This document shows, one piece after another, positions 15,719 through 46,419 of a stretch of 64,000 nucleotides of DNA. Under the pieces are notes generated by a model. It searched no databases, was not told the DNA's origin, and was given only the letters and a program-made list of their open reading frames with translations. The stretch lies in assembly GCF_033971325.1 (NCBI RefSeq), contig NZ_CP117180.1, positions 688,041-752,040 on the forward strand. The letters run 5' to 3'. The position numbers were made by a program, and so were the translations under genes. Each line of letters begins with the position of its first letter. Position 1 is the first letter of the stretch. The stretch is from Hydrogenobacter sp. T-2. GTDB lineage: Bacteria > Aquificota > Aquificia > Aquificales > Aquificaceae.

Positions 15719-16213
15719 GTCTATATCCCTCACGGTGGGCTTAAAACGGAGGTATTAATATGAAAAACGCAGTTGTGAAAAATGTCGCCATCCCTCACAG
15801 TGGGCTTAAAACAATTTGGAAAAAATGCTTAATTACCTTACCCTTAACGGGTCTCCATCCCTCACAGTGGGCTTAAAACATAATAATCCATGCAGTAAAA
15901 AGCCAAAACTATTACTTTGTCTCCATCCCTCACAGTGGGCTTAAAACTTAAATTTGACAATACCATACTCAACCTTGCAGGACCTGTCTCCATCCCTCAC
16001 AGTGGGCTTAAAACAGACAGAAAAGGGCATTTCATGCCAATAGTGGGAAACGGTCTCCATCCCTCACAGTGGGCTTAAAACTATCCACACACAGGACATT
16101 TGAATGTCCTATCTGATGTCTCCATCCCTCACAGTGGGCTTAAAACCGTAGGCTTTAAAGTTCCTTATGTAGCCTGGCAAAAGGGTCTCCATCCCTCACA
16201 GTGGGCTTAAAAC
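15719..16213 (-). CRISPR. CRISPR array, 8 repeats of 29 bp, 7 spacers
   Basis: Repeats begin at 15719, 15784, 15851, 15919, 15986, 16053, 16118 and 16185. Each is 29 bases, reading GTCTCCATCCCTCACAGTGG at the start and ending GGGCTTAAAAC on the plus strand. Spacers are 36, 38, 39, 38, 38, 36 and 38 bases. Repeat 1 has three changes, repeat 2 has one, and repeats 3-8 are identical, so the left end is the old, leader-distal end. Read on the minus strand the repeat starts GTTTTAAG and ends ATGGAGAC, resembling the ATTGAAAC-type handle of type I/III arrays. Transcription therefore probably runs right to left from a leader beyond 16213. No cas gene is in the window. Spacer 7 matches dnaG exactly. 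Confidence 0.97.
16147..16184 (-). other. CRISPR spacer 7, identical to dnaG
   Basis: The 38-base spacer, read on the minus strand, starts CCTTTTGCCAGGCTACATAA and ends AAAGCCTACG. Bases 46254-46291 of the plus strand, inside dnaG, are the same at all 38 positions. It is the spacer closest to the presumed leader, hence the newest. Confidence 0.97.
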
Positions 16214-16578
16214 CCCAAAGCCACATATAAAGAAAAATAAGATACAGCAAGCCTTTTGTCAAGGGGATACCCCTCTCAAATGAGGGTAATTTTTCTCCAA
16301 CCTCCGATAATGCACAATTTAGTATGCAATTGTCAAATTTAAAGCGTTGAAAGACAAGGCTCTAAAGCACTTGCCATCAAAGCATCAAAACATCAAAACA
16401 TAAAGACACCAAAATATAACCCGTGAAGGGCGGGGAAACCACCATATACTTCTTAGTCAATACTACCCCCTTGCTTTCAAAGACCAAAAACCCTATTCAA
16501 CTGCCAAGATGTCAAGGGGCTATAGACCCCTAAGTTTAATCTATGATTTATTGTATCACAAAGTGGTCTCTTGCGTGC
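16214..16578. other. presumed CRISPR leader and non-coding gap
   Basis: About 375 bases separate the array from cysS, and I see no convincing gene in them. The part next to repeat 8 is AT-rich, as expected for a leader on the minus strand. Two related palindromes share TGTCAAGGGG...CCCCT: 16262-16274 (loop ATA) and 16515-16531 (loop CTATAGA). The first overlaps a competing hairpin CCCTC-TCAAAT-GAGGG (16271-16286). A decaying 8-base tandem repeat occupies 16375-16414. The leader assignment rests on repeat degeneracy, not on a recognised leader motif. Confidence 0.55.
16375..16414. repeat. 8-base tandem repeat, five copies
   Basis: Successive octamers are CATCAAAG, CATCAAAA, CATCAAAA, CATAAAGA and CACCAAAA. 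Copies 2 and 3 are identical and the others differ by one to three bases. It lies in the gap between the CRISPR array and cysS. It may be a simple slippage product or protein-binding sites; nothing decides between them. Confidence 0.7.
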
Positions 16579-44883: not shown

Positions 44884-46419
44884 ATGTCCTCTTACAGGGA
44901 CCTTCTTGCAAAGATTGACATTGTGGATGTGATATCCTCTTACATAGAGCTAAAGAGAGTTGGCAATAACTACACCGCAAGGTGTCCCTTTCATCCCGAT
45001 GATACACCATCCTTTTATGTATCTCCTTCAAAGGGCATTTTTAAGTGTTTCGGTTGTGGTGTGGGAGGCGATGCGGTTAAGTTTGTGAGCCTGTATGAAA
45101 ACATAGACTACTGGGAAGCCCTTGAGAAATTAGCAAAGAGGTATGGTATAAAGATAAACCTTAAAAGGAGGGAGAAGGATAGTCAGATCCTGCTTGCCCT
45201 TCAAAGGGTCGCAGAGTTCTACCACGAAGAGCTAAAAAACAGCAAAGTAGCTATCCAATACTTACAAAGTAGAGGTATAAACTCAAAGACCATAACCAAG
45301 TTTCAGCTTGGCTTTGCGGGAAATACAGACAAGATGATAAGGCTACTTAAAGAGGAGGATCTTCTTGAGGTTTATGAAAAAAGCTCAAACCTTATAAAGA
45401 TTGACGAAAACCTCTACAGAGACCTCTTCAAAAACAGGTTGATAATTCCCATAAGGGATATAAAGGGCAATGTAATAGCCTTTGGAGGCAGAAGTCTTGA
45501 TGGAAGTCACCCTAAATATGTGAACTCTCCAGAATCTGAGGTTTTCAAGAAAAGGTCAAGCCTTTTTGGTCTCTTTGAGGCAAAGGACTACATAAAAGAA
45601 TCCCAGCGGGTAATTATCGTAGAGGGCTATTTTGACCTTATGAGTCTCTGGCAGGAGGGTATAAGAAATTGCACTGCACCTCTCGGCACAGCACTCACAG
45701 AAGACCACGCTTATATGCTCTCTAAGATGGCAAAGACCGCAATACTCCTCTACGATGGAGACCAGGCAGGCAAGAGGGCAGTAAGGTCTTCTGTCCCACA
45801 TCTTCTGAAAGCAAAGATGGAAGTGAAAGTGGTATACCTTCCAGAAGGAGAAGACCCAGACTCCTTTGTGAAAAAAGAGCCAAAGCTACTGAGGGAAATG
45901 CTAAGCTCTTCTCTGCCGATAGAAGAGTATATGCTTGAGGAAATAAGGAAGGGAGACAAGCAAGCCTTTGATGACCTTCTATACTTTTGTGGTTTTATAC
46001 CAGATGGTGTTAAGAGGTTTGAGCTCCTTAGAGAAGTTTCAAGGATAACTGGACTTCCTATTACGAGCCTTCAGGATAGAATTCCCAAGATGGAAGTTAA
46101 AGGAGAAAGGGAAAAAATAGAGCTTAGCTATCACGAGGCGGTTTTTCTTGCCGGTCTATATAGGTTTGGGACTGAAGGAATAGACTTTGAGAATCTCAGA
46201 CTTTCTCCTCAGGCTATGGAGCTTATTGAAGCACTTCAAAAAGGTGAATATCACCTTTTGCCAGGCTACATAAGGAACTTTAAAGCCTACGACCTTGAGA
46301 GGGCTTTTCAAGAAAGCCTTAGAATGCTTAGCACTGTAGAGGAGAGTTTGACTCTGAGCTTTGAAGAGATTAGAAAAATAAGCAAAGAACAACCACGAAA
46401 GCTAAGAGTCAGAAGGTGA
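44884..46419 (+). CDS. dnaG: DNA primase
   Basis: A 511-residue primase. The zinc-binding domain uses C34, H37, C55 and C58 ([18 protein letters not shown]). The RNA-polymerase core has [19 protein letters not shown] and the Toprim acidic motifs [13 protein letters not shown] and [12 protein letters not shown]. The protein is shorter than E. coli DnaG (581), with a reduced C-terminal helicase-binding part. Bases 46254-46291 (residues ~457-470, in the C-terminal region) match CRISPR spacer 7 exactly. TATAAT lies 8 bases before the ATG; the divergent neighbour is hemD. Confidence 0.95.
46254..46291 (+). other. protospacer in dnaG matching CRISPR spacer 7
   Basis: All 38 bases are identical to spacer 7 of the array at 15719-16213. 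Bases flanking it are AATATCA on the 5' side and ACCTTGA on the 3' side. Neither resembles the repeat, so the target is not protected by repeat identity. On the strand matching the presumed crRNA, the 5' flank TCA would fit a TCN-type PAM; this is only a possibility. Confidence 0.95.

Follow-up and report, generated by a model that had tools for sequence, protein, structure and literature searches.

The R1 CRISPR array, which lies in a window of 64 kb (by the window we mean the whole stretch of 64,000 nucleotides that was analysed), is best regarded as a type III-A (Csm-class) array that has become an orphan: it has no cas genes nearby and its cognate effector is absent from the genome. Four of its seven spacers (2, 4, 5 and 7) match the very genome that carries the array. 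The likely explanation, in our view, is that the array took in these self-spacers via a leader that it shares with other arrays, and that, with the cognate effector missing, nothing kills the cells carrying them. The preliminary description of this DNA, which dealt with the match of spacer 7 to dnaG, was right about spacer 7 itself and overlooked spacers 2, 4 and 5, which are also self-derived.

In the sense of the crRNA, the R1 repeat reads GTTTTAAGCCCACTGTGAGGGATGGAGAC, and the array appears to be transcribed from right to left. The sequence to the right of position 16213 is conserved both beside arrays with different repeats in the same genome and beside R1-class repeats in relatives, the repeats at the left end of R1 have degenerated, and the orthologous array of the sister species G036 has a counterpart of the leftmost spacer (table 1). 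With the leader on the right, degenerate repeats on the left and a leftmost spacer that also occurs in G036, spacer 7 is the newest acquisition, and its leader-proximal position, proposed earlier from the sequence of the window, is upheld. An assembly artefact at R1 is unlikely, the array lying on a single contig and both its flanks and its oldest spacer also occurring in G036. The predicted stem of the R1 repeat contains an A-A mismatch (CCCAC/GAGGG) that is missing from the same class in other genera (CCCAC/GTGGG), and its predicted folding is weaker (-6.4 versus -8.9 and -9.6 kcal/mol in other genera). A second R1 site (genome 627293-628640) is split by an insertion sequence, with a lone repeat on one side and two repeats, one spacer and the leader on the other; its G036 orthologue is unbroken.

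Table 1. The R1 array, its dnaG target and related features. Positions are those of the window unless given as genome coordinates or with a locus handle.
Feature	Position	Strand	Remarks
R1 CRISPR array	15719..16213	(-)	8 repeats of 29 bp and 7 spacers of 36-39 bp
Spacer 1 (oldest)	15748..15783	(-)	orthologous spacer in G036, 33/36
Spacer 2	15813..15850	(-)	38/38 to 3' end of radical-SAM gene, genome 1537820-1537857
Spacer 3	15880..15918	(-)	matches only within array
Spacer 4	15948..15985	(-)	37/38 to R2 leaders (genome 1654714, 1306542); 38/38 to G036 leader
Spacer 5	16015..16052	(-)	38/38 to Memo-family / AmmeMemoRadiSam system B gene, genome 827757-827794
Spacer 6	16082..16117	(-)	matches only within array
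Spacer 7 (newest)	16147..16184	(-)	38/38 to dnaG
Leader	16214..16400	(-)	recurs in this genome at R2, R3 and further R1 arrays, and at arrays of relatives
Remnant of region with leader-linked small ORF at other arrays	16453..16518	(+)	
dnaG, DNA primase, 511 aa	44884..46419	(+)	TIGR01391, 400 bits, cut-off 284
dnaG protospacer	46254..46291	(+)	5' flank TCA, 3' flank ACC
R3 array	genome 503193-503417 (region 502394-503429)		four 29-bp repeats; beside III-B locus
Leader-linked ORF sites	L024 5677, L025 4917, L026 5378, L027 4918, L028 5044, L130 9458, L142 1807		

Spacer 7 is the exact reverse complement of a segment of dnaG (38/38 bases; genome 734294-734331), whereas a chance match of a 38-mer in a genome of 1.69 Mb has by simple arithmetic a probability of about 1e-17. 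Repeat-like sequence was looked for in the flanks of the target and none was found, and the match thus holds exactly as first described. Given the direction of transcription that we infer for the array, the spacer 7 crRNA has the same sense as the dnaG mRNA, and pairing of a type III complex with this transcript is therefore precluded, as had been suggested. The dnaG gene of G036 differs from the spacer 7 target at 10 of the 38 bases, which argues that the spacer was derived from the gene of its own lineage; uptake of a dnaG piece from a relative can be rejected for this sister species. Spacer 7 would be doubly safe to carry, the cognate effector being missing and the crRNA having the sense of the dnaG mRNA. 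Regulatory crRNAs are known for partial matches, and a regulatory use of the dnaG match had been raised on a more speculative note. The exactness of the match and the retention of the spacer are the only points that speak for a regulatory or any other adaptive role; the four self-spacers, however, are directed at unrelated loci, the matches are full-length rather than partial, the cognate effector is absent, and the pairing is not conserved in G036, whose dnaG site has diverged as stated above and whose orthologous array has no such spacer. We regard a role of this kind as extremely improbable, and the suggestion finds no support here.

Like spacer 7, spacers 2 and 5 are identical over 38/38 bases to loci of the same genome outside CRISPR arrays. 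The crRNA of spacer 2 is antisense to the mRNA of its target, a radical-SAM gene with a helix-hairpin-helix end, that of spacer 5 has the sense of the Memo-family mRNA, and that of spacer 4 is antisense to the transcripts presumed to run from the leader into the array. For spacers 1, 3 and 6 no convincing match was found beyond the R1 array, and viral contigs contained no match to spacer 6 (27-mer) or to the R1 repeat. It could be argued that the self-spacers are tolerated mainly by the rules of type III interference, under which an mRNA-sense crRNA has no complementary transcript and may persist even with an active system. Spacers 5 and 7 are indeed mRNA-sense, as is a self-spacer of G036, which retains csm1-5, but spacers 2 and 4 are antisense, the former to its gene and the latter to the presumed leader transcripts, and csm is absent from the present genome altogether, all of which makes this explanation rather improbable as the main one.

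The flanks of the targets were compared with those of foreign protospacers of the R1 class. The foreign targets, matched by spacers from two relatives (G045 and G046), lie in an integrated element of G036 (~762-811 kb) and on three contigs of another genome, G048 (C12, C40 and C94); judging from the translations, the element and the contigs appear to carry conjugation-like genes. A CCN motif on either side (CC at -3) is present at six of the seven foreign protospacers of the class (0.0016 with shuffled letters), the motif having been found after the fact and on seven sites. It occurs at none of the four self targets of R1, whose 5' flanks are TTC, TCA, AGG and GTC and whose 3' flanks, read inwards, are AAG, GGT, GTA and GGT. 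The option of a wrong PAM at dnaG, considered in the preliminary description, is thus supported in that the TCA flank does not fit this post hoc motif. The lack of the motif at the self targets fits either the survival of only those self-spacers that have a wrong motif or the action of another adaptation module. The target of the G036 self-spacer does carry a CCN-type motif. As for the type I-B array of the present genome (R4), none of its 16 spacers was matched in phages, and the two spacers tried against viral contigs gave no match.

The frequency of self-spacers sets R1 apart from other arrays. In the same genome, none was found among the 16 spacers of the R4 array or among the seven spacers of the R2 and R3 arrays; two spacers of an R2 array (genome 1654359-1654526) differ by one base, as if duplicated or acquired twice. 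R1-class arrays of six relatives have at least one self-spacer among 71, which against the four of seven in the window gives a Fisher p of 1.2e-4, the R1 sample being small (seven spacers in one array), and other arrays of the relatives have none among 45. The relatives' self-spacer is that of G036: it is the newest of its array, matches over 36/36 bases, has the sense of the mRNA and is directed at one of several tandem coiled-coil genes. The self-match count of G036 is a lower bound, with 40 of 49 candidates covered by the scoring. Since this species has csm1-5, loss of the effector is not strictly required for the tolerance of a self-spacer. The prediction that other R1-class orphan arrays would hold self-spacers too failed, as none was found among the 27 spacers of such arrays in four further relatives in which Cas1 was not found. 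Orphan status is therefore insufficient, and an active Cas1 seems to be needed as well.

The preliminary description had also considered that the dnaG match might be tolerated because cas genes are missing. Their genome-wide absence can be rejected. All Cas1 and RAMP hits fall outside the window, and the genome has both a complete type I-B set (the operon of the R4 array, with an unbroken cas3 and the one Cas1 gene of the genome) and a type III-B set, in which three RAMP hits correspond to Cmr1, Cmr4 and Cmr6 with a cas10 of the III-B kind alongside. The idea nevertheless stands for those systems to which R1 is tied. In G036 and four other genomes (G028, G045, G025 and G051) the R1 repeat class occurs no more than a few kilobases from RAMP genes, which in G036 are identified by profiles as csm5, csm4, csm3, csm2 and cas10/csm1, i.e. 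as type III-A. No csm gene was found in the present genome: its RAMP hits are of the Cmr type only, and at the DNA level nothing in it matches the csm region of G036. Homology to the flank of the G036 csm locus (97%) covers the neighbouring gene to its end and breaks off exactly where csm would begin. With csm unmatched anywhere and the flank homology ending at this point, the cognate effector of R1 must be regarded as absent.

The second system concerned is a type I-B operon (hereafter I-B'), which is complete in G036 (cas7, cas5, cas8b, cas3, cas4, cas1 and cas2, with a divergent cas6) and deleted in the present genome, where an open cas6' and a fragment of cas7' remain beside a leader. The left flank of the G036 operon is found here at ~865 kb and the right flank at ~1430-1434 kb. 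The cas7' fragment is a pseudogene with several stops and indels (84% identity to G036, 11 gaps), and the neighbouring cas6' is 93% identical. Two Cas6 proteins remain in the genome. The type III-B complex might, together with these, make use of R1 crRNAs, in which case spacer 2 would be antisense to its gene; we infer, however, that the remaining effectors make no use of them.

The R1, R2 and R3 arrays of the genome have one leader in common, and in G036 an R2 array with the same leader adjoins the I-B' cas2. The Cas4-Cas1-Cas2 module of I-B' thus probably supplied spacers both to its own array and to R1-class arrays. The likely course of events favoured here would start from an R1 repeat that belongs beside csm and a leader that is common with the I-B' array, both systems having since been lost in the lineage. 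Cas1-Cas2, either that of I-B' before its loss or that of the intact R4 type I-B system acting later in trans, would have inserted fragments of the host chromosome into R1; both the module and the timing are a matter of interpretation. Acquisition of a self-spacer by the type I-B array would kill the cell, leaving 16 spacers without self, whereas in the orphan R1 array self-spacers would cost nothing and, being unpurged, would accumulate. At most arrays of this genome and of G036, the leader is followed by an ORF of 50-70 residues with a YDLWESLRIESIKRNISMGELIAKKL core; a closely similar 70-residue sequence has no match in Pfam.

The order of the losses and the acquisitions bears on a different scenario, in which the self-spacers came first and autoimmunity then selected for the loss of csm1-5 and I-B'. 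Both effector systems tied to the leader are indeed gone, the I-B' deletion has one of its breakpoints in that part of the leader to which spacer 4 is homologous, and such a sequence of events has been proposed for other genomes (PMC6990116). However, spacers 5 and 7 are mRNA-sense and would have been harmless to a type III system, and the cas7' fragment is well decayed while spacers 2, 5 and 7 together are identical to their targets at 114 of 114 bases, which suggests that the spacers are younger than the loss. The same comparison leans weakly towards acquisition after the loss of I-B'; identity rates vary by locus (84% for dnaG, 98% for the array flank), which weakens any dating from cas7'. 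On balance we consider autoimmunity as the cause of the losses unlikely.

The breakpoint itself would admit a more specific possibility, namely that spacer 4, copied from a leader, directed cutting of the leader while an effector remained, leading to the deletion of I-B' from cas7' to cas2. The joint lies within the leader segment that resembles spacer 4 by homology, and a short GTCAA is common to the sequences meeting there (G036 leader, GGTTGAGTATGGTATTGTCAAATTTAA; present genome, GGTTGAGTGCAATATTGTAAGGTCTAA; G036 cas7', CGGTCAAGGTCTAC). A breakpoint would fall by chance inside these 38 of ~560 leader bases in about one case in 15, by arithmetic and in a comparison made post hoc. If this scenario, which we hold to be very unlikely, were true, R1 would contain the weapon with which a CRISPR system brought about its own loss, and at the same time the record of that event.

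The R3 array offers a further view of the shared leader. Its repeats correspond to the 3'-terminal codons of a transposase gene within an insertion sequence: the first repeat continues the frame of the transposase (YNLYRMWKMN), and the last, still in this frame, leads into LI-stop, followed by the element's right inverted end. Folding of the R3 repeat gave no hairpin. The leader word TTTTGTCAA lies at a distance of 39 from the R3 repeat and of 40 from the repeat in five native arrays of the genome. R3 is thus a probable neo-CRISPR array formed inside the transposase gene, and the simplest reading is that the insertion sequence landed at the edge of a leader, where a leader-measuring Cas1-Cas2 took the 29 bp that happened to lie at the proper distance as a new repeat. 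This suggests that integration was measured from the leader without a true repeat and, if correct, would mean that spacer insertion at the shared leader was still going on in this lineage.

The genome can be viewed as a natural experiment, in which one array is under selection against self-spacers and the other probably is not, and in which adaptation proteins of one kind plausibly serve both. If our preferred reading of an orphan array with tolerated self-spacers is true, R1 shows acquisition before the lethal cases are removed, with about half of the spacers being self in what is a very small sample. It would also follow that an exact self-match need not imply an anti-CRISPR or regulation once the cognate effector is gone.

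R1 resembles the type III-A (Csm) arrays of its relatives in the class and length (29 bp) of the repeats, in the length of most spacers (36-40 bp) and in the leader family; it differs from them in the absence of csm1-5 and in its rate of self-spacers (4/7 versus at least 1/71). Comparable situations have been described in other bacteria. In Lactobacillus acidophilus NCFM, six self-spacers accompany a deleted cas cassette (PMC6990116); as here, several self-matches occur in one array whose cognate cas genes have been lost. The present genome differs in that two other CRISPR systems remain, the loss being confined to the effector of the array itself, and in that a sister species with intact loci reveals what was lost. 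In Flavobacterium columnare, a VI-B array fed in trans by the II-C Cas1 keeps self-spacers and the II-C array loses them (PMC8092290). The parallel is that self-spacers are kept in one array and not in the array of a DNA-cutting effector, and that the two arrays differ in the side on which the flanking motif lies. The two cases are distinguished by the systems involved, types III-A and I-B here versus VI-B and II-C there, and by the kind of evidence, which in F. columnare comes from deletion of cas1 and here from the comparison of genomes.
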